Source: Liolophura sinensis (taxonomy: Eukaryota; Mollusca; Polyplacophora; Chitonida; Chitonidae). From it: a DNA stretch of 64,000 nt. Of the stretch, positions 12,466-64,000 are shown piece by piece. Where the stretch lies: NCBI RefSeq assembly GCF_032854445.1, contig NC_088295.1, positions 75,914,028-75,978,027 of the forward strand. Direction: 5' to 3'. The position numbers and the translations under genes are program-made. Each line of letters begins with the position of its first letter. The first letter of the stretch is position 1. The notes beneath the pieces are model-generated. The model saw nothing but the letters and a program-made list of their open reading frames with translations. It made no database searches and was not told the origin of the DNA.

Positions 12466-12741
12466 CTGTTTATTATCTGGCCAGGTCACAGGTGGGACGA
12501 GCTAAACACAAATATATAAACATATATAAACAATAGGAACAGCTGGATGCATGGTTACCGATGCGTACGTGCATGTAAGAGTATAACTTCCACCAGTGTT
12601 GGCCTACTCAATCACTGGAACTGGATTGTTCGCGCCGTAGTTAAGCCGATCGGAGATAGGTGCACTATTGTCTTTTCAGGCATCATCACGCGCCGATCGT
12701 CATAAGTAGCAGGATCGAATCCCGAATAACATCACAAGAAC

Positions 12742-40351: not shown

Positions 40352-40559
40352 TTACATCTGTTTATTTTTTTCAAGCCTGCCACTGTAGAATGTCACCTGA
40401 CGGACAATCCAGATGACAACAGAGGTGATGTACCAGTACTGTACAAAACGCATGGCAAGAGGGCGTGATTTGAGGTCCTGGTATCCTAGGACACCCAGGA
40501 TAAGGTCAGCAGTGAGGAACAACACACAGCGGAAGAGCTCCAGCAAAGGGGAGTAATCA
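40352..40559 (-). CDS. AGMO: AGMO coding exon 11 (residues 380-448 and stop)
   Basis: Follows a TTCTCTTTCAG acceptor. Encodes [20 protein letters not shown], a second hydrophobic segment [17 protein letters not shown], and a lysine-containing tail before TAA. The first ATG-initiated frame (from 40615) reads through the intron and is not the true start. Confidence 0.92.
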
Positions 40560-43500
40560 CTGAAAGAGAAAATCACGTCAATGAGGGCAAGCTCAAATTT
40601 CACATCACATTTCATGTTTGTATTGCAAAGTGATGGGAAGAAATGGAAATAATGCTGAATTGTGAGTCTTGCTAAAATGTATGTGTAGATGGTGCCGCTG
40701 GATAAAATTGTGTGTATAATACAACTGTCCAGACTTTATATATATAAAAAAAAAAACAAGTCATTTTCCTAACCACATGAAATATAGAACCTCTATTTTA
40801 GCAGAATAACTTACACTGAACCAGATTACTAATAATGCGTCAAAGCTGTGCATTGTTTTATTCCATGGTTAAAATGAAAGTAGTTCAGCCACCTCTTTCG
40901 TTTTCCTTTTAGAGAGACCAGAGAGATGCGAAGGTTTTCAGGAAAATATTTAAAGACTAACCTATTGTCAAACAGTCGTCCGAAAGATGTTAAAGACAGC
41001 AAAACAAAGACTTCAGAAAGAAGCACAAATGTGACAGGCAAGACCTGTGTACAAAAACAGAAGAACCCATCAAAAGATTCACATTAATGGAAGTTGTAAA
41101 TTCCTAATAAAACAAGCTAATTAAACTGCCTACAGCAGAATACCCTACGCCAATCATGGCTCCACCATCCTCGATCTGATCAGGATCTGCCTATCATGGC
41201 TCCACCGTCCTCGTATGGTAAACCTACCATGGTCGGATCATGTTCCAATGTACATGTATGATGGGCATACGATCAGATCAGGATCCGCCTATCATGGCTC
41301 CGCTGTCCTTGTATGGTAAGCCCACGGTGGTCGGATCATGTTCCAATGTACATGTATGATGGGCATACGATCAGATCAGGATCCATCTATCATGGCTCCA
41401 CCGTCCTCGTATGGTAAACCCACCATGGTCAGATCATGTTCCAATGTACATGTATGATGGGCATACGATCAGATCAGGATCCGCCTATCATGGCTCCACC
41501 GTCCTCGTATGGTAAGCCCACCAAGGTCAGATCATGTTCCAATGTACATGTATGATGGGCATACGATCAGATCAGGATCCGCCTATCACGGCTCCGCTGT
41601 CCTCGTATGGTAAGCCCACCAAGGTCGGATCGTGTTCCAATGTACATGTATGATGGGCATACGATCAGATCAGGATCTGCCTATCATGGCTCCACCGTCC
41701 TCTTATGGTAAGCCCACCAAGGTCGGATCATGTTCCAATGTACATGTATGATGGGCATACGATCAGATCAGGATCCGCCTATCATGGCTCCACCGTCCTC
41801 TTATGGTAAGCCCACCAAGGTTGGATCATGTTCCAATGTACATGTATGATGGGCATACGATCAGATCAGGATCCGCCCATCATGGCTCCACCATGTTACC
41901 ATATGATTCAAACATGATTTTACAACATTCAGCGCCCCATGATTTTACAAAGTCAACACAATCTGCAGATCATTTACTGCAGCTAATGAGATTGCAGAAT
42001 CATTCGCCTTTGTACCCACTTTGTACAAACGTGTAAGTATCTCTTCTGTATTATATATGTAGGCTACAAACACCGGTGCTATATACGCTCAAATTTTGCA
42101 CGAAATTGTTGCGCAGGAAAAAATACTTCTCATTAATACATGAACAGAAGACATAATGGATTTGTCGTAAATAAGTCTGTAACAAACACAGCATGAAATC
42201 TGGCAAATTTTGATCAATATGGCAGGATGATATACCCATGACGGTACCGCCAGGATGACAGAATGATATACCCATGATGTTACCATCAAATCATGGCACT
42301 GCCATGATGAAAGGAAGATATACCCATGATCGGTGCCAGGACGGCAGGATGATATACGCATGATGGCACTGTCCGGATGGCAGGATGATATACCCCTGAT
42401 GGTACCGCCAGGATGGCAGGATGATATACCAATGATTGTACCATCAGGATGGCAGGATGATATACCCATGATTGCACCATCAGGATGGCAGGATGATATA
42501 CCAATGATTGTACCATCAGGATGGCAGGATGATATACCCATGATGGTACTGCCAGGATGGCAGGATGATATACCCATGATGGTACCGTCAGGATGGCAGG
42601 ATGATATACGCATGATGGCACTGTCCGGATGGCAGGATGATATACCCCTGATGGTACTGCCAGGATGGCAGGATGATATACCAATGATTGTACCATCAGG
42701 ATGGCAGGATGATATACCCATGATGGCACCGCCAGGATGGCAGGATGATATACCAATGATTGTACCATCAGGATGGCAGGATGATATACCCATGATGGTA
42801 CCGCCAGGATGGCAGGATGATATACCCATGATGGTACCACCAGGATGGCAGGATGATATACCCATGATGGTACCACCAGGATGGCAGGATGATATACCCC
42901 TGATGGTACTGCCAGGATGGCAGGATGATATACCAATGATTGTACCATCAGGATGGCAGGATGATATACCCATGATGGCACCGCCAGGATGGCAGGATGA
43001 TATACCAATGATTGTACCATCAGGATGGCAGGATGATATACCCATGATGGTACCGCCAGGATGGCAGGATGATATACCCATGATGGTACCACCAGGATGG
43101 CAGGATGATATACCCATGATGGTACCACCAGGATGGCAGGATGATATACCAATGACTGTACCATCAGGATGGCAGGATGATATACCCATGATGGTACCGC
43201 CAGGATGGCAGGATGATATACCCATGATTGCACCATCAGGATGGCAGGATGATATACCAATGATTGTACCATCAGGATGGCAGGATGATATACCCATGAT
43301 TGTACCATCAGGATGGCAGGATGATATACCCATGATGGTACCGCCAGGATGGCAGAATGATATACGCATGATGTTACCACCAGGATGGCAGGATGATATA
43401 CGCATGATGGCACTGTCAGGATGGCAGAATGATATACCAATGATTGTACCATCAGGATGGCAGGATGATATACCCATGATGGTACCACCAGGATGGCAGG

Positions 43501-46500
43501 ATGATATACCCATGATGGTACCGTCAGGATGGCAGTAGACAGTGGATCAGGGTCAGCATACGATGGCCTTACATTCCACGCAAAGATTCGGCCTCGATGA
43601 GCATAGGGTATTCGACTAGGATCCGGCCGTATTGTACTTTCCGATAGTTTATTTTATGTATTTCATATAATTTAAAATAAAGCTTTCTATCATTCCCAAT
43701 TACATTTTCGTTTTGGTCAGAGAACAAAAACATAAGCATGGCTGATATTACCTTTTGTCTAAGATTACTACAACAGAGGCAGGAATACCTTGGCAGTCAG
43801 AAAGAGACAGTATTTTACGGGAGACAGAACAAGCCAGCCATTAAACAACCTTAAATAGAGCAGAAACAAGTCCAGCAGATATCAACTGCCAATCAAAAAT
43901 AACTGCCAATATAAAAGGCCAAATCTGAAAACGAGACTGACACATGACTTACTCGGTAGCTTGCTGCTATTTGCTGATTCAGCTGAATGATTATAAAGAA
44001 GTGAATACAGATGTATAGACCACACCATGGTGGTACACAACTGCTGTACTTCTCCACAGGATAACACACCTGAAACAAGGGATGTGAGATTTAATGAAAC
44101 CAGCGTTATGAGAATAAATCAAACAAGGAATATGAGAATTATTTCACAATTAATCAAACAAGGGATATGACAAATTAATCAAACAAGGGATATGACAATC
44201 ATTTCATAATTATTCAAACAAGGGGCATATGGTTTCATCAAACAAGGGATAGGAATTAATCAAATAAATGATATGATAATCAATCAGAGATATGAGAATG
44301 AACACAACAAGGGATACGAGAATTAATGAAATAAAGGATATGAGAATTAATGAAATAAGGGATATGAGAATTAATCAAACATCTTATGGTCAAAAGGTCT
44401 ATATTGTAAAATAATTATTTTTATTTCAATCTGTGGATGACCTGTCTCTGTGTATAACATACTGTCCTGTCCTCTTCCTCCTGTTGTTATATACCTTTGG
44501 AATGTCTTCGATGTTTCCCAACCTTGGTTTGCCGCGCTCCCAACCAGGTCCTTTAAATATCACGGACAGCTTATTAGCCAGCCCCTTTTCTTCCTTAAAG
44601 CGACCCCACATATAATGAAGGTGGCAGAACTGAAAGAGGAATACAGGAGATCTGACATATACCAGATGTGGCAGAAATGAAAGATGAATACAGGAGATCT
44701 GACACATACTACAGGCCGCAGAACTGAAAGATGAATACAGGTCTGACATTTACTGGACATGATAGAACAGAAAGAGGAATACAGGAGATCTGACATATAC
44801 CAGATGTGGTAGAACAGACAGATGAATACAGGAGATCTAATTTATATCTGGAAGTGACAGATTTGAATGTTGATGAATATTATAACATAAGCTGAATGTT
44901 CAAAATCACCTGTGAACTGAAAGATGGATGAAAAAATGAATTGCACTTTCTTTGCGCATTTGTATTTAACTACTTTTGTTTCAAGTAATATTGCTTGTGT
45001 GATCAGGAGTCCATGAAAAATATATGTGCAGACTTGTGGGTTGCTCTGGACACTTACCTGTACAATTGTTACACCTACCTGTATTTTGAACGGCTCAAAG
45101 GTACCAACAGGGTGGGTCAAGCCATAAACCACAGTCTCATCTTCAGCCTGGAAGGTCCCTAAACACAGGACCACACAATCCAGATCAGATGATATATGCA
45201 CATTTTATAAATTTACGCTGTCTATATGGCCTGAGCTAGTATGTAAATTTCAAGCGGACACCCAACCAGGTAAGCCAATATTCGTTTGTGTCTTTAAACA
45301 GAGTAAATACTCCGCATAATTAAATTAAAAACAAGAGAGAAGTCGACGAAAGTTCAATATATATTATACCTTTGCTTTCTTACTAACTACATCAATAAAC
45401 ATGTATACAGACTCAGAGGAAACTGTATGTATACAGAGGAAATTGAGAGAGGGGACTATGCCAATTTGTGAGGTATTAGTATGCACTAACTGAGGTTTCA
45501 CATCCATACGCCAAGTCATTTTGGAGATACGGCTCAGACAAGAGCACAAGGATATGAAACAGCTGATGGGGGTGGAAAGACAAATGTATACAAGCAAGTT
45601 CAGGTCAACAGAGTATATGTCAGAACAAATATGTTTGTCACTGGTTTGGCAGGGATACATTCATGTATTAAATATTAAACTTAAAAGTACATGCATAAAT
45701 AAAACAATGATTTATTCATTAAACATATATTAATTCTGATCCTAGTATTAGCGTTACCATGGCAACTGTGCAGATGGACAAATGTGTGACATGACACATT
45801 GTCATGTCTGTATATACACTGAACAAAAAAAAAAGACACTTCACATGTGTTACTTTTATGTTCCAAACATATTTCATATAGAACAAGTGTGCTGCTAGTG
45901 GATAAATCTGGTTCATGGACGTAATGGGCGTACAGTAAAACAGGATTAGGCCTCAAGGTTGGCTTGGCGCACCCTCCACAGTCAACAGTAGCATGATGGA
46001 GTCACTTTTTGATTTCAACTAGCCATCTGTATCTGTACTGTTCGGTATCGTAATACTCTAAATGCCTTTTCATTTCCGTTCATAAACTTTTGTGCATTTG
46101 GTAAGAAGACAAATTCACAGAAATCAACTTTCGCCGATCTTAACAGAATTTTTGAACAACTGGTCAAACTTCAATAAAAGGACGTAAAGTAATAAAACAA
46201 CTCAAGCATTCAAGTAACAGTGTTATCATTTAAACTTCTTTGTACCTGTAAGATGTCACAAAAATTCTATACAATACATTAGGTTGATCAGACAAAGGAA
46301 GTTAATCCTCCTATGCTTTTAATCTTAGTGTAACAGACTGTTGATATTCCTATGTATGTGACAGGGTAATATTATTCTCTATGTATTACAACTAGAGAAA
46401 AAACTAGTAGATTTCAGGACACACAGATGGAATGATTATGATTAACAGCAACTTCAGCACTCTTACAGGGGTACTGTGGTCGGAAAAAACTCACTACACG

Positions 46501-49500
46501 TTATACAACCCTCCCACTGTTTGACGTATAGAGAAAAGAGGCGTACTCTAATTCTATAACCTTTTCAACCGCCTCTGCCGCCAATGCTATGAATGTCATG
46601 TTCTGAAAAAATTATGGAGTGTAGAGAAATAATTAACACAACTTTATGAAGTTTGCTTCCTTAGTGACACATAGAAATCATTTTAGTGTCATTTTCATAA
46701 CAATTGTATGCACAAACTCCACTGAAAAAAAAATCCTTTAGAGGTCGAAAAGGTGAAAAATTTACAGTAACACAGAAATATGTGGTCATGGCTTGTAAAT
46801 GGTATAAGACCAAAGGCATTAAACGAGAAACATAAAATTGCTTTGTGTTCTTCTTTAAAGACTGGCAGCAGTACCGCGATATGGAGCTGAACACCGTATG
46901 CTGTTGGACTGGACTGCGCCCACACTCTCCACACCACGTGGTTCGTACATTCAGTTACCGCGCACGTCATCACAGCCTTGTTCATCAACCTCGGAAGGCT
47001 GAGGCTTCAAATTGAATCAATCATTTCTGCATGTGCTACGCTCTACTATCGTTATTTAATATGTCCTTCACTGTGCCCATTACAGTTGAAAACAACCCTG
47101 GTTAATTCAGGCAGATCCTACATACAACAGTGACAAAATACTTCACACTTTGATAAGCCATGATGTCACCTTGTCCTCACTCACCAAACAAACGATCCCA
47201 AACTATCAGTGTGCCGGCATAGTTCTTGTCAATGCAGTAGGGGTTTCTCCCATGGTGGACCCTATGGTGACTTGGGGTGTTCAATATATATTCTAATGGA
47301 CCCAAAGATTTCACATACTGGAGAAAAAAAGAAGATCTGAAGGTGATTAATAAGTTATCACTGGCAGTTTCACGTATATGGTTTCTTCATGTTCAACACC
47401 ATACAATCAAGTGAAAACCACAAGTATAGGCCTGTATCAGGGTAATGTAACAGAGAGCAAAAGCAATGATGCAGACCAAGTAGCAGATGTTCGGGGACAT
47501 CATCTAGTTACACATATTGTATAGATGGAGAAACACTGATTTAGGCACATCCCAATTACACATAGAAATACAGGATGCAGTGTGACAGGGGAGGTAACTA
47601 CGGTCTATGGCTAAGAATAGTTGCCTCCCTCTTCTTGGGAATTCTTCGCACTGTTAAATATATCTTAAAATTTTCTCCACAAACCCTTCTGAAGTCATAG
47701 CAACTTGTGCCAATGATCAGGTTCACAGGTAAAAGTTGCCTCAGTTTTAGTAGCAGTTTTATGTCTTGACGGAAGTGTACTTTCATGGATACATTTTCTG
47801 GATTGCTGATGTCTTTGGGGTATATAATACTGACTGTTTCTCAACACATCTTGATGGTTACTGATGGTAATGCTAAGGCAGGTTAGAAAATGGGTGGGGT
47901 CAGTTTGGAAAAATTCCACGCTTCAGTACTGAGTATGTCCGCCGTTTGCCTGCTGCAGTTCTACACATCGTCAATGCACTCAGCAATGTTACCTGGAACT
48001 GTAAGTCATCTATGAACACGTCGGTTGAAAACAGGAAAGGTGACTATCATGGCCAGTCGAGCACTTGAACGTTTTCGGCCTGTAGAAATGCTCTGCATAC
48101 AGCAACAACATGGGGACGGGCACTGTCGTGCTGAAATGTTACTCTAAGGCAATGGACTAACGAGACAACCACTGGGTGCACCCAGCCACAGTAAACCCAC
48201 ACCCGGCCTTCCAGTTATTTGGACAGGGTGGCCCACCCAGCCACAGTAAACCCACACCCGGCCTTCCAGTTATTTGGACAGGGTGGCCCACCCAGCCACA
48301 GTAAACCCACACCCGGCCTTCCAGTTATTTGGACAGGGTGGCCCACCCAGCCACAGTAAACCCACACCCTGCCTTCCAGTTATTTGGATAGGATGCCCCA
48401 ATCAGCCACAGTAAACCCATCCCAGGCCTTCCAGTTATTTGGACAGGGTGGCCCACCAAGCCACAGTAAACCCACACCCGGCCTTCCAGTTATTTGGACA
48501 GCACGCCCCAATCAGCCACAGTAAACCCACACCCGGCCTTCCAGTTATTTGGATAGACGCCCCAATCAGCCACAGGAAACCCATCCCAGGCCTTCCAGTT
48601 ATTTGGACAGGGTCGCCCACCCAGCTACAGTAAACCCACACCCGGCCTTCCAGTTATTTGGATAGGACGCCCCAATCAGCCACAGTAAACCCATCCCAGG
48701 CCTTCCATTTATTTGGACAGGATGGCCCACCAAGCCACAGTAAACCCACACCCGGCCTTCCAGTTATTTGGATAGGACGCCCCAATCAGCCACAGGAAAC
48801 CCATCCCATGCCTTCCATTTATTTGGACAGGGTGGCCCACCAAGCCACAGTAAACCCACACCAGGCCTTCCAGTTATTTGGATAGGACGCCCCAATCAGC
48901 CACAGTAAACCCATCCCAGGCCTTCCAGTTATTTGGACAGGGTGGCCCGCCCAGCCGGAGTAAACCCACTCCCAGGCCTTCCAGTTATTTGGACAGGGTG
49001 GCCCACCCAGCCAGAGTAAACCCACTCCCAGGCCTTCCAGTTACTTTGGAAAGGACGCCCCACGTAGTCTCAGTACACTGAATCAGGCCGTCCAGTTAAT
49101 GGGAAAAATACTCGATGGCTGAGCTTCACATAAAGTAGTACCCAAAGTGACAAATGACAATCTTAATGTTGAACTAGAACCAAAGACTTCTATATTCTTC
49201 AGAAGAGAATAACAGCTATTATAAGATGGATTTGAATTATAACTCTCCTATAAACAAACCCTGCAGTAAATTTTCCAGAAAATCACATTACCTCAGTGTG
49301 TATCCAGAACTGGAATAATATATTAAATTGCTGATGGACCAGGAAGACAGAGGGTGGGATGAACAGAGCCAAGGGCAAATAGAACATCTGAAACCAACAG
49401 AGAGAAGGACTAAATAAATGATCAAGGCAGTTCTCAGGATTTGCACTAGGTCTGATGTACAATAGAAAATAAATGCTTTATACCCACAACATATGCTTAG

Positions 49501-52500
49501 CTTGATAAATTATATAAATTTCAAATGTTTTAAATGACAAAATTTTACTACATGTACCTAAATTACCATAAATTTTGTCCAAGACTAACTTGTGCATTTT
49601 TCCTGATTCTGAGAGTTCTGTTGAGTTTAGAAAGGTATTTTGCAGTTTGCTTGGAATATGGGATGATATTCGACAGAAATTACAAGTTTTAAAATTAAAA
49701 AAAAAAATTTATCCCATTCATTTGTCTCCAAAAATGCCCTATTGTGGACGAAAATTTAGGTCATTTAGGGTATATATATATATATGGAATAAATAGGTCA
49801 TAAATATCCATTTATATGGTATGTATAGGGATATGGCTGTCTGGTTACCATGACAACCATGGAATGAACAAATGTGAGTCTTGACAAATCGTCATCTGTG
49901 TGTGTATGTATCCACCAAAGGTTAAAATTCTACACAGAAAACAGTTGGCATTATAGCCTGAACATGAAATCATATATATTTATATTGCATGTAGAGGGAA
50001 AATGGCAACCTGGTAGCCATGACAACCTCGCAAATAGACAAATGAGACTCGCGGGCATCATCATCTGTTTATGTATGTATCCATCAAAAACAATGGAAGC
50101 TCTATGTGGAAAACAGTTGGAGTTATAGCCTGGACACGAATCAGATGGACAGATGGACAAAATCGCAACGTCATACGCTCCGCACAATGGTGGGGGCATA
50201 TAAAGAGATCAGCAAAGCACTGATCATGCTGAACAGAATGTGGTTGTTGTTAAGCTTTCATTTACAGTTAAGAATGTGGAATCTAACCTTTTCAACAGGA
50301 ATCTAACATTTTTGCTGCTGTTTTTGACTCACTTGAATTAATTCACAATCATGATTTATTTTTGTCATACTTCTTAACTTGTTGATGTTAATAAAAGCTC
50401 AGTCTAAAATGCCACAGACTACATTAGAGATTTCCAGTCCATCAATAATTATAGCTTACTGACATAATGGTTGCCATAAAGCCTTTCTTTACTTTGGGAT
50501 CTGATCACAGGACATGAACTTCGATTGAAACTGCTGTTATTATTTTAGAGAGTACAGTTTTCATTAAAAATTCAAAAATTTCAAACAACTGCAAAGCTAC
50601 ATTACAAGACTGGATCTCCATTTCCCCAAAATAAAACATCTGTATCACTGGCAGCATAATTTTTGTAGGTGTGCTTTTGTCTCATAAGAGCTTCCTACTG
50701 GATTATATTTCAAAGCAAACAATGCTGAGGTAGTGAGAATCCTGACAGTTTGTTGCCATGGGCAATATAACACCAACACCAAGCTGTATATCTGTGAGAT
50801 TATGAGGATAATCCCTTTTCTTTAGCCTGTGATGTAAACAAATAATTATCTCTATATATCTGTAAACCATGTCAAAGATCTCAATTCCACTGGCGCTCGC
50901 CACTGTCGCAAATTTAGAAAAAAATTTTGAAATGGCGAAAAAAAATGTGAATTTACTTAGAAAATGTACAAACGCTACTCAAAATTTACCTGGCGAGGTT
51001 TTCCTAGTACTTTTCAGGCCCAAGAATTTTCTGGAGTTTTAAGGGTATTTTCTCTATATTTTGGATGGGAACAATTCATTCTTTAAGATGGATAGGAAGC
51101 TAGAGATCACCTGATCTCCTTAGTAACAAACGGCGTGGGTGAAGAAAACAGTCCTCCTAACTTTATGACATACGAAAATGCCTATTTTTGAATCGCTATC
51201 AGCAATCTTGTATCTGTTGAATTTGTATAATTGTCAGCATTCCAGATAGTCTAAGTATTTCTGCAGAGCTATTTGTTATTTTGTACAACTAGGCCTTACT
51301 GGTCGCTATCGAAGTGGAAAAAGTGACCTTTTACTTTACTTTCACTTTGAACAGCCTCATTTCAGCGAAACAACAACAACACTCTCATACGGCGATTTTA
51401 CCTGACAGAAATCTACAAAGGGGGTTCAGCAATCTTGCAAGTTGACTTACATTAGCTAACGCTTGAAAATCATTCTTGTTGAATAATGAACGAGAATCAT
51501 GGAATTTTGGGGGGATGCCATTCATAATCGAGCTCAATTATCAAGGGAGATAAATATAGGTAGTGTTAGACCTGTAAATGAAGTTACCTCCCTTGAAAAA
51601 TTTAACCCTTTTCACTTCAATAATCTATTTTAAGGAAGTAAATTCAATGTTTCAGAATACGTACCGACATATAAATGTGTACATAGTATGCTTTTCTCCA
51701 GTCATACTGTGTAACTCTAGTGTATTGATCATAATGCTGCAATTAAATGAACTAAATTTACAAATTTATTGCCTAACAAATTATTTTGAGGAAATTGCAT
51801 TTTACTAGGACACTACAGACGGATCGAAAAAAGGATAGATTTTCACTCTATCAAGGAATGGTCCATAATTTTGAGGGCAACTGTTCTAAATGCAGCATGG
51901 AATAACTTCTGGAAGAGAACAAACTGATTCTAGCAGCTATATCAAGGCAGATAAAAATGAATTACAGCTGGAGACTAACAAGAGTCATTCAGATACTGCT
52001 CCCATCCAATCAGTTGATGATCACATAGACTAAGTCACAGCGGCTGAGAAAGTATAGCTAAAGAAAAACAGTCTTGGTTACAAAATCTGATGAGTCGCTA
52101 AAGTGAGTGGCAAAAAAAAAAAATACTGAATCAGAGAAAGCCTAGTTGAAAGCCACTACCACAAAACATAAATTCTTAATTACATGTAAAACCATAAATG
52201 TACGTACTTAACCTAAATCGGAGCTAAACAAGCTCTAAATCTGAGCTTTATCGGAGAACCCAAGTCCTAAAGCTGTACAGTCTCCTCTCTTTCAAAACAT
52301 CTCAATTTTCATTCCCAAGGGGAGTTAAAGAGCTCCACTTTTACAGTTAATCTTGATTTTATGCTGCACATGTGATGAAGAGGCTTACCCATGAGGTATA
52401 CTTCTGCAGAACTGACTGTCGGAGGGCTGTAGTCAGGTTGTAATCCTCAGAGCTGTGGTGCACTTGATGGGCTGCCCACATTATGTTCACTTCTGAAACG

Positions 52501-55500
52501 ACACAGGAAGTGATGAAATTAGCCAGGTCAAAGTCTCAGTCAATATGTTTTTCTAGGCTTTAGGAGATACGGAATCATTTCCAATTTATCCGGGCATTTC
52601 CAGCAGCTAAATGTGGCATTCATGTGGTTGGTGGAACGGCCAGTAGCAATGTTTGTAAATATATATATAATGGTGACATCTTTATTAACTCGATGTCATT
52701 TATGTACAATGCATTTTCATAGAAATTCATTTACATGCATCGCAGTCTTACAGACTGACTTTGACATGAGGCGGTCTAACAGATAAATACAAAATAGATT
52801 CTAAGCTTTAAACTGCAGTTTAAGCTGCCCCAGAGGTTAGTTCGTAAAGTAAATAGCCTGCTGTGATGATGTCATTGGTGATGGGTGTCAAAATGACTTG
52901 GTTCAGGGAAGGATGCTAAGCTGGTCCCCGGTTCCCAGTATGTTTATCAATGACATCACCACTGACAGAAAATATGCATAAAATAAAGGGGTGATTAAGA
53001 AAAAAAAAATATGCTTCAAAAATGAAAAATTCTTTTTAATTTCTTTTTCACATTTTCATTAAACAATGTTCTTCTTTTTATCTATCCTAGAATGTGGATG
53101 CAGTGGCAGAATACCCGTACGATTTCAAACAGTGCAAATGTACAGTATACCATGAGCCAGTCTGTGGAACCAGTAGTAACCCAAATCTACTGCCAGGAAG
53201 GCTAACCACCAAGTCCATGCTGAGTCCCAGGCTAACTCATACACGCAAAACTTCTCAAACACCCAAACGTAAGATCCCAACTCAACTGTGCGCATAAGGT
53301 ATCTGCAAATGAAAGTTTAAAGGAGAATTCCTGTATCTGTATTTAAAATAAACTAAGGGTTTAAATGAAAAATCCTGTAGTTTGCAGGGCCTGATTTGAT
53401 AAGGTTGTGAACCCTGTACACAGTTTACAGGCACCACTAGTTTGTGTGCCTAAACAAGAAATATAAAAAAAAAAATCATACAAAAAATGGTATTCATTTA
53501 AAAAATAACAAATATTGTTCATGATAGATTTAATACAGTTATTATATAGCAGGAATATATATATGGAATATTATATAGCGCCATATATATCAGGAATTAA
53601 GTTTGATTAATTGTATACTTTATTACAGGCTGAATATACCCATCAGTTTCAATCATACAAAGGCTGGAATCAGCCAACATCTGGTTTTATCTCTTGTGGT
53701 CCCATCCCAATTGAGAGAATCCTTCAGTTCTGCATCCAACCCATCAGTCTGATCATCACTGCAGTAATCAGCCTGAGAAATTTAACCTGAACTGAGTCTG
53801 CAGAGTAAATAGTTTTCTTTCTATCATTCTATGTGTACATATATCTTCTATCCATATACTTGATACAAACCCCTTTAGATGAATATGTCAGTTGAATATC
53901 AGTGAGTTAAACTCATGAGTCTAATTTTTCTAACCAAACATATAAATCCTTGAACTGTGTAAACAAAAGCTACAACTTACCCTTAATTTCATATGTTTAA
54001 CATTTCAGAGAATAAAGTGAAAGTAGTCTCTCATCTACATGTAAACTAAACAACAAAGCTACAGAAACATTCAACATGAAAGGACCACTTTTAAATAAAG
54101 GCTTTTAAAGCTTTGCCTCGCATCATACATCGCATCATGCAGATGTCAGTCAACCTGCTAAACTCCTTATTGTTCAGCTCCAGCATGGGTACTTATGGTA
54201 GTACTTACAGAGGAAGACGAGAGAAAAGTCCAGCACTCATAGAGGTCACACCATCATTTATCCGCATTTTCTTATCTCCTTTAATCAAGGAGATTGTTAG
54301 CTCTATGGCCACAAACAACATAAAGGATGGCACAGACTGAAAGTCAAAGAAGATAAAGTATATAAAGTATATAAATACCTACTTGAATCATTTATATACA
54401 AAGCAAATGTGTAATCTATTTATATGCTCATATATTCAATGTTTTTTGTTGTTTTTTTTTGTGTGCTGTACTCAAGAATATTTCACTAATACAGCAGCTA
54501 GCATTATGGTGGGAGGAAACCAGGAAGAGCCCTGGGGAAACCCTTGAGCAGGTTGCTGGTAGACCTTCCTACTTAGAACCAGTGAGAAATACAGCATGAG
54601 CTAGATCTGAACTCGCAGCGACCACATGGATGAGAGGCTTATGCGCCGCTGTGCTGCCCTAGCATGCTAACAATCATGTACGGACGTACAGATGTCAAAG
54701 ACAGCTGTGGAGGGAAATGTCCAGCCAAAGTTTTGATGTTTGTCCTTAGGTTTCTCACACGGTGGGCCAAACAATACGCTGGTTTACTAAGAATGCATGT
54801 TGGAACACTCACAGCATGACTTTAATGGATGGCTTGCAGTAACCATCAGTTTAAGGCACAGTGAGTGGTACGGCAATACTTTGACGCCTACATATCTAGT
54901 CAAAATGTCAGTGAACAAAGATCTTCTCTCCTATCACTTTTACGAAAAAATTTACAGCGACCATAGTCTTGAGACTGCTCTGATCTTAGGTCTGGCAAAA
55001 CTTTTGTTCGGCCATGGATGGCCCCAAACCGTCAGAGCACGCTCTATTCAAAACCTGATGCAGTTTACTGCCCTTGTCAAATATGTCGAGACTGTCAGTA
55101 CTGTCAGGAGTCTCCAGCCCACACATCCTTGGAAATAATCAATCGATGCTGTGATTGAGATAAACTGCCAGGCGAAAAGATAAGGAACATAAGTGTCTGC
55201 AAATTTAAGTCTGTGGAATTCATAATATTTAATTTTTTTTCTCAAACGCCGTTGACAAACTGTCACGGTAACTGCATCAGGTTTTTAAATGAAGCGCACT
55301 CTGGCGCTGGATTGGAAACATCCTTGGCCGAACAAAATTTTTGCCAATCCTAACGTCAGTGCAATCTCGGACTACATCGACCAAAGTTCAATTACCACTC
55401 CTCTGTAGTGCGTGACGTTTGCAAAACACCGCGCAAACGGTAACATTTCGCTTTTTATCAAGGGAGAATATTGTGAAAATAGATGTGTGACAGTCGCACC

Positions 55501-55610: not shown

Positions 55611-55654
55611 TTCATCCACGTGATATGCCGCCTAAATCAACGAAGTCAAGTATC

Positions 55655-55664
55655 TTTATATAAA
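55655..55664. promoter_or_regulatory. Palindromic TATA-like element between AGMO and PIR
   Basis: TTTATATAAA is a perfect 10 bp palindrome 45 bp upstream of the AGMO ATG. On the minus strand it reads TATATAAAG, a good TATA box, which would give AGMO a very short 5' leader. Because it is symmetric it could serve PIR too, but no PIR start was located. Positional inference only. Confidence 0.3.
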
Positions 55665-56436
55665 ACGTAAGCACGTAAGATGACTTACTCTTCCAGGTAT
55701 ATGCTTACTACTGCTTTGTTATCACGATTAAGTGAAATTAATTCTTCGTTTTTTTCGTTTACCTTGCAGAATTCGAAATAAGTGGCTTATTTTTATTGCA
55801 GTTTGGGGCGGTCAAGGTCAGCGCACTGTTGCGTTTGAAATAACACATGTGTTTTGTTTATTTGGACTGAATTAGGTCAAAGGGAGGAGACGATCTGAAT
55901 TCACAATGATCTAGCTGTCACCCTCGAATATCTGACTTAGGTTCCTTTCCTTTGTTACTTGTCATTACTTTATTTGGAGCACCAAGTCTTATTTATCCTG
56001 GTCACTTTGTTACAGGTAGTGAGGTACGTTCTGCTTTTGTTTATAATCTGAGCGTTTCATTTTTTTTTCTTAATCTTGTCGAAAAGTTTGAAATGGAGTG
56101 ACGGTATAAATCAAACGAATTTTTTTAAGTTACAAACGATATTAGGGATATTGAGCACGTTGTTGCGTGATCATGGTGATTACAAAAAGATGCGAATCTT
56201 ATCAGTTTGCAAAAGTCCATTGTGGCTATGTGGTCCTGCATTAATCACGTCGTAATTGTGAAAGTCCATTGAAGTTCAAATTGAACTGATATAACAGACC
56301 GAACTATCGTTCATCATATTTTTTATATCCATATATTGCAAACCGGAATGCATGTAAGTAAATCCCTGTTGAGGAAAGCAACATATGCAGTTGTGAGAGG
56401 TCTTAGCATTAGCACAATTCTAGGGCTAGCCTCATA

Positions 56437-56464
<28 letters not shown>

Positions 56465-56467
<3 letters not shown>

Positions 56468-56620
56468 CTTGGGTTTTTATGTCATACTTAGCAATTTTTC
56501 AGCCACATGATGTTGAGTGCCAAGCGAGGCAGCAGCAAGTAGCAGTTTTAAAGTCTTTGGTATGACCCAACCTGGGTTGGAGCCTTATAGTAGTCTAGCC
56601 GTAATAAATCGCTATGCATT
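56465..56620 (+). mobile_element. Interspersed repeat, second family (plus strand)
   Basis: TTTTATGTCATACTTAGCAA, TTTTTCAGCCACATGATG, GTGCCAAGCGAGGCAGCAGC, TTTTAAAGTCTTTGGTATGA and CCTGGGTTGGAGCCTT follow the same 3' order as the copy at 19735-19965. Confidence 0.65.
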
Positions 56621-56885
56621 AACCATGCTGGAGACAAGAACATGCTGAAGCACTTAATGTGCTTCATCAAACTTACACTCTGAATGTTCCTACGTGTACT
56701 CTTAGTGAAACCTACATATTGTTTGGTTGTTGGCAAAACCTTGATACAAAGAAACCCAAAGATAAACATCCAAACTTTGGCTTGATGTTTTACTCTAGCG
56801 CCATATTTTGACGTTAGGAGTCTACATCTACTCTAGATGTTTACTGCCAGGTTAAGGGTTAATGATGTGGTAGGGCTTCCAGTCA

Positions 56886-57042
56886 TAGATGGGAAGGCCT
56901 GTCAGCAGCCTGCAGATGGTTTTTGGCTTCCCTTGAGCTCTGCTCACGCCCCCACCACCCTAAACATAATGCTAGTTGCTGTCATTTGAATAAAATATTC
57001 TCAAGCAGGGTGTCAAAACACCAAGCAAATAAATAAATAAAG
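56886..57042 (+). mobile_element. SINE fragment (plus strand)
   Basis: GATGGGAAGGCCTGTCAGCA, GCCTGCAGATGG, TAATGCTAGTTGCTGTCATT, AATATTCTCAAGCAGGGTGT and an AAATAAATAAATAAAG tail match the family. It lies between AGMO and PIR. Confidence 0.75.
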
Positions 57043-58011
57043 ATGGTTTATATATACTGAAATCATTAATGAGCATCGCCATATAAATCTAGAACGCTGC
57101 TCAGCAAAGTTCTTGAAAAATGAACACTTTTTATTTCATTTTCAATAAAAGCAGTTATGTCATCATGACAAAAAGATTTAGTCCATGTTACCAATATGCT
57201 GGATGTAGTTGACTCATTTGCAACAGTGTTGATTATGATCTGTTTTTGAGTGATAGCTTGCAAATTAGTTCGCCCTAAAATAATTTATAATTTATTTGAA
57301 TATTTAGTCCTGATGGCATGCAGCATCACATTACTATTGTGAACATTGCAGGAATGAGCAGAAAAATGCAATTTTCTAAAGTAATTCATCCTCAGCTAAA
57401 TGTACATTTATATATACTACATGCAGATCTTCTTTATTAATACAACATGTGAACAAGTCATGGTGTAAAAATCTCCTGTATAGTCTCTTAAACTGTTTTA
57501 ATTCTTGACACACCAAATGACAGCATACAAGTTGTTATAACCATGTAGGCATGTTTTCAACACCACACAAGTATGGGTGTGATACGCTGATCATGGCTGG
57601 AATATATAGGCATATACTACATGGATGTATAGGGGTGTATGGTTAATGCCTCCAGCTTAATTTAGCCAAAGTTTGTGATGGTTTCTATAAAGCATTTTTC
57701 TGTTGTGCATTTCTTGTCAGATTTTCCACAGTCTGCAGCCCCTGTCAGTGTTCATAGTATCAACTTCTGTAGAGACATTGGGTAAACACTCTTCCAATAA
57801 GGAACAAATCCCAGCTTTTGAAAAGGGCTAAGGTACAGGCAGGTACATGCATGTATAGGTCCAAGTATAATGTATAGTTACCTTAATGTGTCTCTTTTAA
57901 TCATGTAAGATTCGTTATTTTGACTCGAAAGTTTATCTTTTCTGATATAAGATTATCATTGGTTGATTTAAATGCCTGCCATGCTTTGAATATGTTTCTT
58001 AGAAAGTGAAG

Positions 58012-58141
58012 ATGACACACAGAACTGTCACTAAGATTGCCTCACCAAAGATTCAGACAGAAGGTGGAGGGTTTTTAATTCGGAAGGTGATAGGAGGTGT
58101 TATCCCGACATGTGACCCATTTTTAATGCTGGACCATATAG
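58012..58141 (+). CDS. PIR: PIR coding exon 2 (residues 1-43; first coding exon)
   Basis: ATG at 58012 follows an acceptor (TTTCTTAG, 57995-58002) and nine untranslated bases, so an upstream untranslated exon is inferred and this is called exon 2. Encodes [20 protein letters not shown] and DPFLMLDHI. Donor GTATGT, exit phase 1. Confidence 0.92.
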
Positions 58142-61100
58142 GTATGTACTTACTCTACTCTTAAGGTCGGAAGAGACCAGAAATAAGTATGTACCTGGTG
58201 TAATCAGACGCATTCCAGGCTTTTGTCCTATCCTTTAGGATCAACCATCTGTGGTTACAAAACCAGATCTGAATACTTTTAAATTTTAGATAAGAATACA
58301 TGTTGCTAGTCTTGACCAAGATCATTCAATATTGATCTGTTGTTTTGGTCTGTTTTTTTTTTTTTAATTTTTTTATTTTTATTGTTTTTATATTATGCTT
58401 GAAATACATGTATGTTTCTTTGTACTCAGATGGTTTAGTATTCTGTAAATACATGTTTGTCTATTATGGCCCAACTGTCCAACACACATGTTTAGAAGGG
58501 ATACAGAAGTATTTCTGATTGGCTGGTGTGAGAAGTTGGCCAGTCTAGGCTATGCCTAGCCTAAAGTTGCTGCATTTTAGGTATGGCAGATTTATTGATA
58601 TGTTCAAAATCAGCAGGTTTGAATCTTGGAAATCCTGTCACAACTCTCAGCCAGTCAACATTTAATGATTCTGTATCCCTTTAATGTGGCTTAGTGTGGG
58701 TGGAGGAGGGCATCTGGAGAAACCTGATAGGAGAGATGAAGGATTATGGTTACTAGGCATAAGGGTATAGGTTCAATCCAGACTCGTGTGTGGCTTCCCT
58801 ACAAGTATCTGTTCTTTACTGGAGCCGTGATGATAATAAGCTGGCAGACACACAAAGAAATGTGGATATTTGCAAAATGATATGTTTGTTGAACAAATCC
58901 ATGCATCACTTTCTGTACTCAGTCATATTGAAGAGCTACTTCAGGGTCAAAACCTCTGTGTCTTAAATCATGATGAAATGGTAAATATCGAGATCTGAAT
59001 CTGAATTGCTTTCCTTCATTGGTAAAAATTACAGTGTATTAAATCTGATGTTGTTTGGGAAGAAAATCTTGAAACAAAAGTTTTGTTTTACAGAAACTAT
59101 AAACCACAGATTTTGTTTCTGAGAACCCTTCAGTTATAGGGGTTTATTAGGATTACATTCATCGTAAATCCTTTTATAAACCATGGTATTAGCTCTACTC
59201 CATAGGATTTTCATTCATATCATTTTAATATTTCTTGAATTGGAGTGGCACTGGATATGCTGTCCAGGATATGGCCACTTCATGCACGTGACAAAGCATC
59301 ATAGAACATTTACTAACAGCATTTAATTAAATTAACAAAGTGATTTCTTGACTACAAGACAGAGTTGATCAGACATGATTGTCTTGATATGTTGGAATTG
59401 TTTTGTTGTTTTTTATATATGCCCCCATCATTTGGCAGAGCGTATTATGTTATATCAATTTTGTTCGTCTGTCCATTTTCATGTCTAGGCTATAACTGCA
59501 ACAGTTTTCTGCATAGAGGCCGCTGTTGTGTAAGTGAAATATTCTTGAGTACGGCGTAAAACACCAGTCAAATAAATAAATAAATAAATTCTGCATAGAG
59601 TTCTAATTTTTGATGGATATGTACATACATACACAGATGATAATGTGTTGTGACTCACATTTGTTCATTTCCCCTGTTGTCATGGTTACCAGATCTCCAG
59701 TTTCCCTATATATACTATATAAATAAATATGATCTCGTGTCTGGGCTATAGCTTCAACAGTTTTCAACATAGAGTTTTAATTTTTTGTGGATACGTAGAT
59801 ACACAGATGACAGTGTGTCACGACTCACGTTTGTCCATTTTCACAGTTGTTGTTGTAACCAGATAGCCATTTTCTTTATATATACTACCTAAATAGAAAT
59901 GATTTTGGGTTTGGGCTACAACTGCAACTGTTTTATGCATTAAGTTTGGTGTTGAGGTGGACGCCTTTGTCCACTTACGATGAAGGTCCCCATGAGGGGT
60001 TATACTCATCACAATGCTGCTGGTATTCTTTTATACATTTCAAATAAATACATTTGTTGGGGCATATGTTGTGTGCACCTGAACTCTTATTCCATGTGTT
60101 TTTCTTCCAGGTCCTGTAGATTATAAACCAGGAGAAGCCCTTGGGGCTCCCGACCATCCTCACCGAGGCTTTGAAACAGTCACATACGTCATTGATGGGG
60201 GAGTCCGCCATCAAGACTCTGCTGGAAATAAGGGTAAAATGTCAATCTGTCTCCATCAAAATTGCATGAATTGGTTGTACTGTTCGACATGCACAAATAT
60301 GGTAAAATTACGCAGGATATGACATTAATTATTAACCTGTGAACTGGTGAGAAGTATTCAGATGCAGTGGTTAAATGTATATTTGATACAAACTCATATG
60401 AGACCTCCCAGGTTATCTTTTGTTGAATGAAGTTATAGTTAAGTGGTGATTTTACATACCTCTGTGCAGGTGATATTTAATTGTATTACTTCATTCTCAT
60501 TTGTACGTAAAAGGGTACATATCTGTGATACACAACATTAGTTGAACTGAGGATATTTATTTTAAACCATGCATGTATGTGTACTCCAGAAAAGGCTTGT
60601 TTCTTAGAAAGGTCAGATTTTGGGAAAGATGCATTATAAGGCCAGGGAAAACATCCGGACATAGGCCTGCAGATTGAGACATGCCTCCTTAGTCTTGAGC
60701 TCTTGGTTGACAGTGAAAGTATCCTTGTTTCACTGATCCAAAACCTGAGGCATTCAGGGAAACAGGTTTATCCTTTCTGTATATTGTGTGTTTAGGTACC
60801 CTGAAATCTGGCTGGGTGCAGTGGATGACGGCCGGCACTGGGCTGATACACTCAGAGATGCCTACGGAGGACATCCTAAAGAACGGGGGAAGGTCTGAGG
60901 GGTTTCAGCTCTGGGTCAACTTACCAGCAAAGGTAAACCCCAAAGGAAATCACTCTAGTCAGACATGTACTGGTACAGGCCCAACTATGGGTCAACCTGG
61001 CAGCCAAGGCAAACCCTAAAGGAAGATCATTCTACTCAGATTGTGTAACGGTACAGGCCCAGCTCTGGGTCAACCTGGCGGCCAAGGTAATCCCTAAAGG

Positions 61101-63145
61101 TACATCATTCTGCTAAGATTGTGTAACGGTACAAGTCCAGATCTGGGTCAAAATGGCAGCCACGGTAAACCTTAAAAGGAGATCACTAGTCAGATGGTGT
61201 AATGGTACAGGCCCAGATCTGAGTCAATCTGCTTACCAAGGTAACCCCCATAGGGAGATCACTCTAGTCAGATGGTGTGATGGTACAGGTCTAGATTGAG
61301 TCAACCTGGCAGCCAAGGAAAACCTCGAAGGGAGATCACTCTAGTCAGATGGTATAATGATACAGGCCCAGAGCTGAGTCAATCTGCATACCAAGGTAAC
61401 CCCCAAAGGGAGATCACTCTAGTCAGATGGTGTGATGGTACAGGTCTAGATTGTCAACCTGGCAGCCAAGGAAAACCTCGAAGGGAGATCACTCTAGTCA
61501 GATGGTATAATGATACAGGCCCAGAGCTGAGTCAATCTGCTTACCAAGGTAACCCCCATAGGGAGATCACTCTAGTCAGATGGTGTGATGGTACAGGTCT
61601 AGATTGAGTCAACCTGGCAGCCAAGGAAAACCTCGAAGGGAGATCACTCTAGTCAGATGGTATGATGATACAGGCCCAGAGCTGAGTCAATCTGCTTGCT
61701 AAGGTAACCCCCAAAGGGAGATCACTCTAGTCAGATGGCGTGATGGTTAAGGCCCAGCTCTGGGTCAACCTGACAGCCAAGGTAAACCCCAAAGGGAGAT
61801 CACTCTAGTCAGATGGCGTAATGGTACAGGCCCAGATATGGCTTCATCTACCATTGATAGTAAAAATCACAGGAAGATCGTTCTAGTTAAATGGTGTAAT
61901 GGTGAAATTTTTTTTTTTTATGAAATCATAATGTTTTACCTTTTTTTTTTTTTTTTGCGTTTTTTCTTTTCTTGAAACATTATTTTATAGGTAATGTCCT
62001 GAAATTCTAGGCCATTTCACATTTCTTATCAATGTAAGGGATTTCTTGTAATAGCAATAAATATTAGGTTGCATAAAAGCATGTATATCTATGGACACCT
62101 GTTGTCAACTGGAAATAGTATTGTAAGAACATGTTTTGTGTGTTTTAGGACAAAATGATTCCGCCCAGGTATCAAGACACGCCCCCAGAGAAAATCCCTC
62201 GTGTGAATACTGAAGATGGGAAGGCCACGGTCAAGGTTATAGCCGGGCATTCACTAGGTAAGTTGACTTGAAAGGTTTAACAGCTGTCTGAGTGACATTA
62301 GGCAAAATACATTTTTTCTGAACCTCATTTCTGAATGTAAGTTATCTCCCCTGAAAAATGACCACGGTGTGTTTATTGTTGAGCAGAAGTTCATCAAGTT
62401 GAGGAGACAAAGGTTATAATAATATACACATATATGATTGATAAACTTGGCTTACGTGCAGTACAGTCAGAAGATGAGGTACAGATAAGAGGGTCTACCA
62501 GCATTGACCTTCAAATGGTTGTGGGTTTAATCGTTCTGTAATTGAACTATTGTTGAAGTGAATAAATATAATTAAATAACAATGAGGGATTTCAGTAGTA
62601 GTAAATTTATAGTTTATGCAGATGAGAAATCACCTTTATACAAGGGGACAGTTCATAAGATCTTGAGTACCGGTATGCTTGAGAAACAAGTCTATTCTTC
62701 CTCTTACCAGATTGCAATAGAACTACTTTTGAAGAAGTTAACTCCCTAAGCCCCTATTTCACAATTTGTTACACCACTCATGAAACTTAACAGTCACAAC
62801 ATATTGTATGAAGCAGTGTTTGTTCTAGTTGAATTTGACTGGTTAATACAACAGATAGCATAGTGTCGATGTTGATGTATTCATTTGGATACCAGCATTG
62901 ATAATGTTTAAATGTTACACATGATGAAATTTCTTTTTCTGGGTACTATATCTTATTCAGATTAGACACAATACAGAATAACAAAGCTGTGTTTTGTGTT
63001 TTTTTGTTTTTGACAGGAGCATCTGCAGTTATAGAGACAAGGATCCCCATCTTGTTTTTAGACATTCACATAAAGCCTGGTGGAGTATTTGTACAGGAGA
63101 TAGCAGAGTCTTATAATGGCTTTGTCTATGTGTGGAGAGGAGCTG
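58012..63145 (+). CDS. PIR: Pirin gene, first five coding exons (3' end outside window)
   Basis: Pirin is a cupin-fold iron-binding nuclear protein; vertebrate pirin acts as a redox-dependent co-regulator of NF-kappaB, and pirins can show quercetinase activity. Coding pieces are 58012-58141, 60111-60233, 60796-60932, 62149-62257 and 63017-63145, joined with matching phases, about 209 residues so far against about 290 for the human protein. Seen here: DPFLMLDHI 35-43; [18 protein letters not shown] 57-74 with metal ligands H59 and H61; [18 protein letters not shown] 90-107 with H103 and E105; FQLWVNLP; then the PP(R)YQ and IPRV segments and the start of the C-terminal cupin domain. The four metal ligands match the human H56, H58, H101 and E103 pattern. 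The remaining C-terminal cupin strands are beyond 64000. Two introns begin with tandem arrays that copy the preceding donor site. Confidence 0.95.
58496..58682. mobile_element. MITE-like element in PIR intron
   Basis: AAGGGATACAGAA (58496-58508) and TTCTGTATCCCTT (58669-58681) are perfect inverted repeats of 13 bp. Inside them GATTGGCTG and CAGCCAGTC also form an imperfect inverted pair. The interior is about 160 bp and non-coding. Confidence 0.6.
59415..59960 (-). mobile_element. Dispersed repeat (PIR intron), split by a SINE
   Basis: Read on the minus strand it shows the same motif order as 49845-50196 and starts from the GGGGGCATA end. Units with GCAACAGTTTT, TTGATGGATATGTAC(A)TACA and GTCATGGTTACCAG recur about three times at roughly 150-170 bp. 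A 5'-truncated SINE is inserted at 59519-59588. Confidence 0.7.
59519..59588 (+). mobile_element. 5'-truncated SINE with 12 bp target duplication
   Basis: About 70 bp beginning GCCGCTGTTGTGTAAGTGAA, then ATATTCTTGAGTACGGCGTA and an AAATAAATAAATAAATAAA tail. TTCTGCATAGAG stands immediately before (59507-59518) and immediately after (59589-59600), a perfect 12 bp target-site duplication. Confidence 0.93.
60111..60233 (+). CDS. PIR: PIR coding exon 3 (residues 44-84), first metal ligands
   Basis: 123 bp after a TTTCTTCCAG acceptor. Encodes [20 protein letters not shown] with the two ligand histidines of the N-terminal cupin. Donor GTAAAA, exit phase 1. Confidence 0.95.
60796..60932 (+). CDS. 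PIR: PIR coding exon 4 (residues 85-130), remaining metal ligands
   Basis: 137 bp after a GTGTTTAG acceptor. Encodes [19 protein letters not shown] and [12 protein letters not shown]103 and E105 are ligands. The exon's last 30 bp with the donor GTAAAC are the first unit of the 77 bp array. Confidence 0.95.
60903..61850. repeat. Tandem array, about 77 bp unit, seeded by the PIR exon 4 donor
   Basis: About 12 units. The first is the exon end itself, CAGCTCTGGGTCAACTTACC then AGCAAAGGTAAACCCC; later units read GTCAACCTGGCAGCCAAGGT or GTCAATCTGCTTACCAAGGT, then AACCCC(A/C)AAAGGGAGATCA, CTCTAGTCAGATGGTGT and ATGGTACAGGCCCAGA. GTCAA recurs at 60915, 60991, 61069, 61147(GTCAAA), 61223 and 61300, 76-78 bp apart. 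Frames at 60786-61019 and 61296-61607 are by-products except for the true exon part. Confidence 0.92.
61851..62148. other. Rest of PIR intron 4
   Basis: Two poly-T runs (61909-61919 and 61941-61956) follow the array; nothing else recognised before the exon 5 acceptor. Confidence 0.5.
62149..62257 (+). CDS. PIR: PIR coding exon 5 (residues 131-166)
   Basis: 109 bp after a GTGTGTTTTAG acceptor. Encodes [19 protein letters not shown] and [12 protein letters not shown], matching the linker between the two cupin domains. Donor GTAAGT, exit phase 1. Confidence 0.94.
62258..63016. other. PIR intron 5
   Basis: No array. A weak SINE-like trace (GGTCTACCAGCATTGACCTT, GGTTGTGGGTTT, GTGAATAAATATAATTAAAT) at 62492-62577 could be a heavily decayed SINE. 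Nothing else seen. Confidence 0.4.
63017..63145 (+). CDS. PIR: PIR coding exon 6 (residues 167-209)
   Basis: 129 bp after a TTTTTGACAG acceptor. Encodes [20 protein letters not shown] and [20 protein letters not shown]. The first 46 bp are unique; the last 83 bp with donor GTAAGC form the first unit of the 88 bp array. Exit phase 1. Confidence 0.93.
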
Positions 63146-64000
63146 GTAAGCATTCACATATAGCCTGATGGAGTATTTGTACAGGAGATAGCAGAGTCTT
63201 ATAATGGCTTTGTCTATGTGTGGAGAGGAGCTGGTAAGCATTCACATAAAGCCTGGTGGAGTATTTGTACAGGAGAGAGCAGAGTCTTATAATGGCTTTG
63301 TCTATGTGTGGAGAGAAGCTGGTAAGTATTCACATATAGCCTGGTGGAGTATTTGTACAGGGGATAGCAGAGTCTTATAATGGCTTTGTCTGTGTGTGGA
63401 GAGGAGCTGGTAAGCATTCACATAAAGCCTGGTGGAGTATTTGTACAGGGGAGAGCAGAGTCTTATAATGGCTTTGTCTATGTGTGGAGAGAAGCTGGTA
63501 AGTATTCACATATAGCCTGGTGGAGTATTTGTACAGGGGATAGCAGAGTCTTATAATGGCTTTGTCTATGTGTGGAGAGGAGCTGGTAAGTATTCACATA
63601 AAGCCTGGTGGAGTATTTGTACAGGAGAAAGCAGAGTCTTATAATGGCTTTGTCTATGTGTGGAGAGGAGCTGGTAAGCATTCACATAAAGCCTGGTGGA
63701 GTATTTGTACAGGAAATAGCAGAGTCTTATAATGGCTTTGTCTATGTGTGGAGAGAAGCTGGTAAGTATTCACATATAGCCTGGTGGAGTATTTGTACAG
63801 GGGATAGCAGAGTCTTATAATGACTTTGTCTATGTGTGGAGAGAAGCTGGTAAGCATTCACATATAGCCTGGTGGAGTATTTGTACAGGAAATAGCAGAG
63901 TCTTATAATGGCTTTGTCTATGTGTGGAGAGAAGCTGGTAAGTATTCACATATAGCCTGGTGGAGTATTTGTACAGGAGATAGCAGAGTCTTATAATGGC
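63063..64000. repeat. Tandem array, exact 88 bp period, seeded by PIR exon 6 and its donor
   Basis: Units start at 63063 (inside the exon), 63151, 63239, 63327, 63415, 63503, 63591, 63679, 63767, 63855 and 63943 and are cut by the window end (10.7 units). Each contains the last 83 exon bases (CATTCACATAAAGCCTGGTG, GAGTATTTGTACAGGAGATA, GCAGAGTCTTATAATGGCTT, TGTCTATGTGTGGAGAGG, AGCTG) plus GTAAG. Units have no length change. Frames called across it (63029-63857) are by-products. Confidence 0.97.

Follow-up and report, generated by a model that had tools for sequence, protein, structure and literature searches.

Mirage-type minisatellites across exon/intron junctions in genes of a chiton

Border-spanning tandem duplications in amphioxus, human and chiton

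The name 'mirages' was given in the amphioxus gene Adh3 to tandem duplications that span exon/intron borders, and the available text of the same report also describes them in globin genes and adds a model of intron gain (PMC3087553). The amphioxus genes TnC and PGBD5 are likewise described as carrying mirage minisatellites (PMC3902484). In human genes that belong to segmental duplications, tandem repeats occur at exon-intron boundaries, with novel introns in some of them (PMC2812944), and the tandem duplication of AGGT-bearing segments has been described as a source of new introns (PMC4974935; the model is also cited in PMC3087553).

The arrays described here, from the chiton Liolophura sinensis, resemble the mirages of Adh3, BflGb6/BflGb9, TnC and PGBD5, as these are presented in the accessible portions of both reports, in being tandem duplications that span 5' and 3' borders; in amphioxus many but not all copies possess the AG or GT and units range from tens of base pairs to about 160 bp, and in these respects the chiton arrays are alike (PMC3087553, PMC3902484). 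However, the host is a mollusc and not a cephalochordate, and the present data add a frequency per junction and a comparison with random seeding. Normal splicing and length instability are reported, in the same portions, for amphioxus, whereas the likeness of the chiton arrays is structural and comes from one assembly. The repeats in human segmental duplications, according to the available part of that study, measure about 30 bp, have four copies on average, belong to recent primate paralogs and lie in half of the cases within coding exons (PMC2812944), whereas chiton units measure roughly 25-110 bp, reach about 40 copies and occur in conserved gene families. With the accessible account of intron gain from AGGT-bearing segments the chiton arrays share duplication across splice-like signals, but it is existing introns that are lengthened and no gained intron is shown.

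No earlier report of junction arrays in molluscs was found in the literature searched, in which coverage of subscription journals was limited, and the word 'tandem' is absent from the available main text of the paper on this chiton's genome (PMC11068029). A first-pass annotation of this DNA had noted recurrent minisatellites at splice sites and had suggested that, if general, this would be an undescribed route of intron growth. The observation largely holds but the claim to novelty does not, as the amphioxus mirages and the intron-gain model of 2010 precede it in the accessible text of those reports (PMC3087553, PMC3902484). The structure is of a known kind, now found in a second animal phylum and common there. 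With a probability of about 0.78, the chiton arrays are considered mirage-type junction minisatellites, that is, local tandem duplications that straddled a junction by chance and were tolerated, with a modest unexplained bias towards junctions.

Arrays in the AGMO and PIR genes

Genome searches covered 609.46 Mb in 632 contigs, and the window, the whole stretch of 64,000 nucleotides that was analysed, corresponds to C1:75914028-75978027. Its part from 40352 to 64000 contains the genes AGMO and PIR (Table 1). TRF (period of at least 15, score of at least 80, overlapping calls merged) detected 10 arrays in this part, or 9 if 44071-44224 and 44237-44379 are joined, where seven had been counted in the two genes before.

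Table 1. Genes, source exons and tandem arrays between positions 40352 and 64000 of the window
Feature	Position	Strand	Description	Basis
AGMO gene	55613 to ~40352	-		tblastn with human queries; partial Pfam and PDB matches
PIR gene	58054 to beyond 64000	+		tblastn with human queries; partial Pfam and PDB matches
98-bp array	41172..41892		AGMO intron, off edges	TRF
36-bp array	42312..43535		AGMO intron, off edges	TRF
24-bp minisatellite	44071..44379	-	ends at AGMO acceptor (exon first base 44069)	TRF and sequence
AGMO exon	44495..44629	-	source of 47-bp array	tblastn and sequence
47/91-bp minisatellite	44621..44838	-	acceptor and start of AGMO exon (exon first base 44629)	TRF and sequence
55-bp array	48179..49054		AGMO intron, off edges	TRF
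170-bp x 1.8 array	59622..59934		PIR intron, off edges; member of dispersed repeat family	TRF
PIR exon	60796..60932	+	source of 78-bp array; ends QLWVNLPAK; presumed true donor GT at 60933	Pfam PF02678, tblastn, sequence
78-bp minisatellite	60906..61837	+	last 27 bp of PIR exon, donor and ~50 bp of intron; ~12 copies	TRF and sequence
PIR exon	63017..63145	+	source of 88-bp array; presumed true donor GT at 63146	tblastn and sequence
88-bp minisatellite	63063..64000, on to L001:343	+	last 83 bp of PIR exon and 5 bp of intron (GTAAG); ~14.5 copies	TRF and sequence

Three of these arrays contain a splice site together with exon sequence, two of them at PIR donors and one at an AGMO acceptor, and the donor GT is kept in 13/13 scored copies of the 88-bp PIR array. 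Four arrays had been said to begin at an exon edge and to hold its splice site; these three do hold an exon end and the site, but the fourth, the 24-bp array, possesses the pyrimidine tract without exon sequence and merely abuts the AGMO acceptor. Nor do the three junction arrays begin at the edge, as TRF places their starts 9, 27 and 83 bp into the exon and the junction lies inside the unit. The exons show conservation with their counterparts in human AGMO and pirin and the copies are intronic, which makes it clear that copying went from exon to intron. The 98-, 36- and 55-bp arrays were located off exon edges by TRF, in agreement with the annotation, and an array at 53540-53597 is also off any exon edge.

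Random seeding in 40352-64000 predicts that 0.85 of the 10 arrays would lie on an edge, with P=0.043 for at least three and P=0.006 for at least four, where the 23 called edges of the region are approximate (several AGMO and PIR edges were missed or mis-set by the caller) and the three to four observed overlaps were read from the sequence.

Further repeats were seen in and around these genes. The 36-bp unit at 42312-43535 is a multiple of three and its array has open frames of 402-485 aa on both strands, which are probably repeat artefacts. Downstream of the PIR match L001:2414-2539, about 17 copies of a 129-bp unit that contains AAG/GTATAT form an array (L001:4960-7139). Long arrays are also present in the initial 40 kb of the window, at 12737-14508 (46 bp x 38) and 24579-25389 (56 bp x 14.5).

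Frequency of junction arrays in sampled genes

Since the AGMO-PIR region had been picked for looking odd, two independent samples were drawn. Sample 1 consisted of TCP1, aldehyde dehydrogenase, adaptin and tRNA synthetase genes (29 stretches, 164.7 kb) and sample 2 of kinesin and myosin genes (23 stretches, 110.9 kb), and together they comprised 52 stretches, 276 kb, six Pfam families, 328 splice edges and 67 TRF arrays (period of at least 15, score of at least 80). All stretches were selected on exon density, before any of them was searched for repeats. Pfam matches were used in 108/125 cases in sample 1 and in 95/213 cases in sample 2, the others lying outside the fetched stretches, and three kinesin matches within L035 and L038, each running through several stops, were also left out. 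Edges were called by combining the Pfam match with the reading frame and with a consensus matrix based on general animal frequencies, and those scoring below 1 were dropped. An array was counted as overlapping an edge when it reached at least 3 bp into exon and intron each and its exonic part did not exceed 1.6 units plus 5 bp. Since the expansion of an array moves its flanks away from each other, plain overlap with array coverage was not accepted as a null model, and each array was reduced to a single unit.

Arrays cover 12% of sample 1, or 13% with L001, which is about an eighth of the genic DNA, and therefore several edge overlaps are expected by chance; the earlier view that array ends would seldom fall on splice sites by chance was overstated, with about 4.5 overlaps expected among 67 arrays. 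Nevertheless, 12/67 arrays were located on a splice edge, against 4.6 expected from random seeds in both samples (P=0.0014) and 4.5 expected under a windowed null (P=0.0013), and twelve settings applied to both samples gave ratios of 2.4-3.1 with P values of 0.0003-0.0055. Sample 2 carries most of the excess (7/29 arrays, 2.1 expected, P=0.003), and sample 1 alone gave 5/38 arrays against 2.5 expected (P=0.098). With GC-weighted seeds the expectation rose to 6.0 (P=0.013), the weights being obtained from the 53 arrays outside the edge and near-edge count, among which are L029, L022, L028 and L046.

Of the 12 cases from TRF, nine are at donors and three at acceptors. Among the junction arrays read from the sampled sequences, that of L002, in a TCP1-family gene, has a unit of 93 bp of exon and 16 bp of intron, L006, in another stretch with a TCP1-family gene, has two donor arrays and one acceptor array, the unit of L019, in an adaptin gene, combines an acceptor with some 34 bp of exon, and a myosin gene in L052 possesses two donor arrays. 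The weakest of the 12 is L049 with 2.4 copies, where the caller took a donor copy and the true donor, by eye, is 30 bp upstream. Inspection revealed further junction arrays beyond the 12 (the acceptor of L006, with 1 bp of exon according to TRF, and arrays in L026, L028, L046 and L022), and 17/67 arrays are junction arrays when counted in this way. As those of L028, L046 and L022 sit at uncalled or mis-called edges, the count of 12 is conservative.

The three junction arrays of L006 form an apparent cluster within 9 kb of one gene (C8:53403900-53412800). Another array, L029:107-343, had been called as a donor overlap, and its edge was removed by hand, as it looks like a coding end with a stop codon. 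This 79-bp array over the apparent coding end and stop codon of an aldehyde dehydrogenase suggests that any border where a single copy suffices can carry such an array.

In a test that made no use of TRF, a junction window of 24 bases (12 of exon and 12 of intron) was sought for each junction in 2.5 kb of adjacent intron. When at least 18/24 matches were required, 13/328 junctions (about 4%) recurred at least twice in the adjacent intron, 11 of them being TRF cases and the two in L022 and L018 not. Under the same rule, the controls gave 0/328 for reverse complements, 0/1640 for shuffles and 4/328 for windows 30 bp inside the exon. At least two copies on the exon side only were found for 0/328 junction windows, and one such copy for three, at 18/24 or more. 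What had been a curiosity of amphioxus is thus extended to a mollusc, with a frequency per junction and a figure for bias that the earlier case reports, in their accessible portions, did not give.

The same junction windows were compared with such intron points as are terminal copies of a repeat, with 2 kb on either side. For at least two copies at 18/24 or more the ratio was 2.7 (P=0.0012; GC-matched P=0.009), for at least three copies it was 3.4 (P=0.00025; GC-matched 0.003), and at the stricter 20/24 or more it was 2.1-2.3 (P=0.02; GC-matched P=0.09). When single extra copies were admitted, no significant excess over the intron points was detected (ratio 1.3-1.5, P 0.08-0.2, GC-matched 0.17-0.45). 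Overall, the excess of junction windows with at least two copies over intron points is 1.6- to 3.4-fold, with a significance that varies by setting. The recurrence is real, and the preference for junctions is modest and threshold-dependent.

It may be asked whether there is any preference at all, or whether genic DNA of which about an eighth is minisatellite would give as many edge overlaps after correction for composition. Chance alone accounts for 4.5-6 of the 12 overlaps, and neither the stricter GC-matched comparison, nor the single-copy comparison, nor sample 1 by itself reached significance. However, the combined counts under uniform and under GC-weighted seeding and the multi-copy windows with and without GC matching all deviate from this expectation, and the uncalled or mis-called junction arrays make the observed count a conservative one, so that an absence of preference appears rather doubtful. 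The worry that exon-derived units simply stay recognisable, an ascertainment effect, was a fair one and called for a repeat-blind sample, but the overlaps persist in that sample. The excess over random seeds amounts to about two- to threefold in the 52 stretches, but the GC-based comparisons weaken it to the values given above.

Origin of the arrays and fate of their splice sites

A 315-base piece of the 78-bp PIR array had five matches in the genome, all of them within its own array, and 0/17 edge arrays matched another sampled locus, one of them matching a neighbouring array in its own locus. For non-edge arrays, matches to other sampled loci were found in 2/50, and L017:7671-8150 matched 31/53 other sources. 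The 98-bp array of the AGMO intron gave 51 genome matches, 48 of them elsewhere, and the 170-bp array of the PIR intron 86, of which 85 were elsewhere (among 40 of 655 candidates scored). Delivery by mobile elements that carry tandem repeats would fit some of these non-edge arrays, namely those with dispersed 98-bp and 170-bp relatives and L017:7671-8150. In contrast, edge arrays consist of sequence from the host exon itself and are without match at other sampled loci, the genome-wide search referring to the PIR 78-bp array only, and such delivery is hardly conceivable as their source.

Relatives of the 98-bp unit, diverged to 68-93% identity, are scattered over many sites and in part stand in rows (C1:71030871-71033021). 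Directly upstream of the 170-bp array stand ACGGCGTAAAACACC and then AAATAAATAAAT, a motif that we take to resemble a SINE tail. At C8:37880506-37891931, eight molluscan haemocyanin beta-sandwich domains follow each other in a row, resembling one eight-unit haemocyanin gene.

In 11/12 TRF cases (L049 left out) the junction is located at 0.26-0.85 of the unit, as would be the case for randomly overlapping segments, and therefore nothing points to breaks at the splice site itself. Slippage or break repair starting at the exon edge had been among the causes proposed previously. According to the preferred reading, a segment of roughly 25-110 bp would be duplicated in tandem locally, straddling the exon/intron border by chance, and slippage or unequal exchange would then expand the duplicated segment into the intron. 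The exon-proximal donor or acceptor would stay in use, the remaining copies becoming intronic decoy splice sites, and the gene would survive because its exon-proximal site is still used. An approximately two-fold excess over chance is left, for which a preference of arrays for GC-richer DNA accounts in part.

Exon edges might instead be true hot spots of duplication, for example because of R-loops, nucleosome positioning or polymerase pausing at junctions. The excess of windows with at least two copies and the fact that donors and acceptors are both affected are in line with this idea. However, breakpoints do not fall at a constant distance from the splice site. If first duplications were more frequent at edges, an excess should also appear when single extra copies are admitted, and no significant one was found. 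In 52 other arrays, moreover, the sense strand showed no enrichment of splice-like signals (P=0.83 for donors and P=0.72 for acceptors). Among these 52 were L022, L028 and L046, since recognised as junction arrays, and L029 was one of the 15 edge arrays used for comparison; as the 52 arrays show no sense-strand asymmetry, they are as a group unlike decayed junction arrays. Hot spots in this sense are considered unlikely.

A further possibility is that seeds last longer at edges, purifying selection keeping the exonic half so that a contracted array can be seeded again, whereas an intronic seed decays. The exon-side copy is indeed the coding copy, and a significant excess is present in multi-copy windows and absent once single extra copies are admitted; the data therefore lean, weakly, in this direction, although dispersed repeats within 2 kb may have raised the counts in the one-copy control. 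We regard a longer life of the seed as a tentative explanation of the bias, less likely to hold than to fail. With similar reserve it may be speculated that in distant animal phyla minisatellites are seeded preferentially at junctions, the selection on exons preserving the seed and arrays being rebuilt repeatedly at the same junctions. If this were true, much of the lengthening of introns and many decoy splice sites in such genomes would derive from exons (here at about 4% of junctions and in up to 17/67 genic arrays).

Whichever process maintains the bias, chance-straddling duplication as preferred here would leave copies of the splice site in the intron. A total of 230 copies at 19 sites were scored, L018 and AGMO 44069 being left out. 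The splice dinucleotide (GT/GC or AG) was kept in 205/230 copies, and 78/230 copies scored as high as the presumed true site. At 15/19 sites the true site was above the mean of its own copies (P=0.025), and therefore copies seem to drift; as so many copies are as strong as the true site, something beyond the core motif must choose. In PIR, exon-proximal splicing joins QLWVNLPAK to DKMIPPRYQ with the spacing of human pirin, and this protein alignment implies that the exon-proximal donor is used. Reading on from the exon into the two PIR arrays leads to stops by 61019 and 63168, and neither array stays open.

It could also be imagined that multiplied splice sites are themselves selected for, for instance in the fine control of splicing or as a source of new exons and introns. 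The many copies that keep the dinucleotide and the strength of 78 of them would agree with such a role, and an intron-gain model exists for amphioxus in the accessible text of that report (PMC3087553). However, true sites mostly stand above the mean of their copies and both PIR arrays run into stops, and selection of this kind seems very improbable. Irrespective of their cause, junction arrays are natural tests of splice-site choice, as up to about 40 copies of a donor or acceptor are present in one intron.

At the AGMO exon end 45079, a second donor-like site lies 21 bp on (45058-45078; ACAG/GTAGGT and ACAG/GTAAGT) and might represent an in-frame alternative donor.
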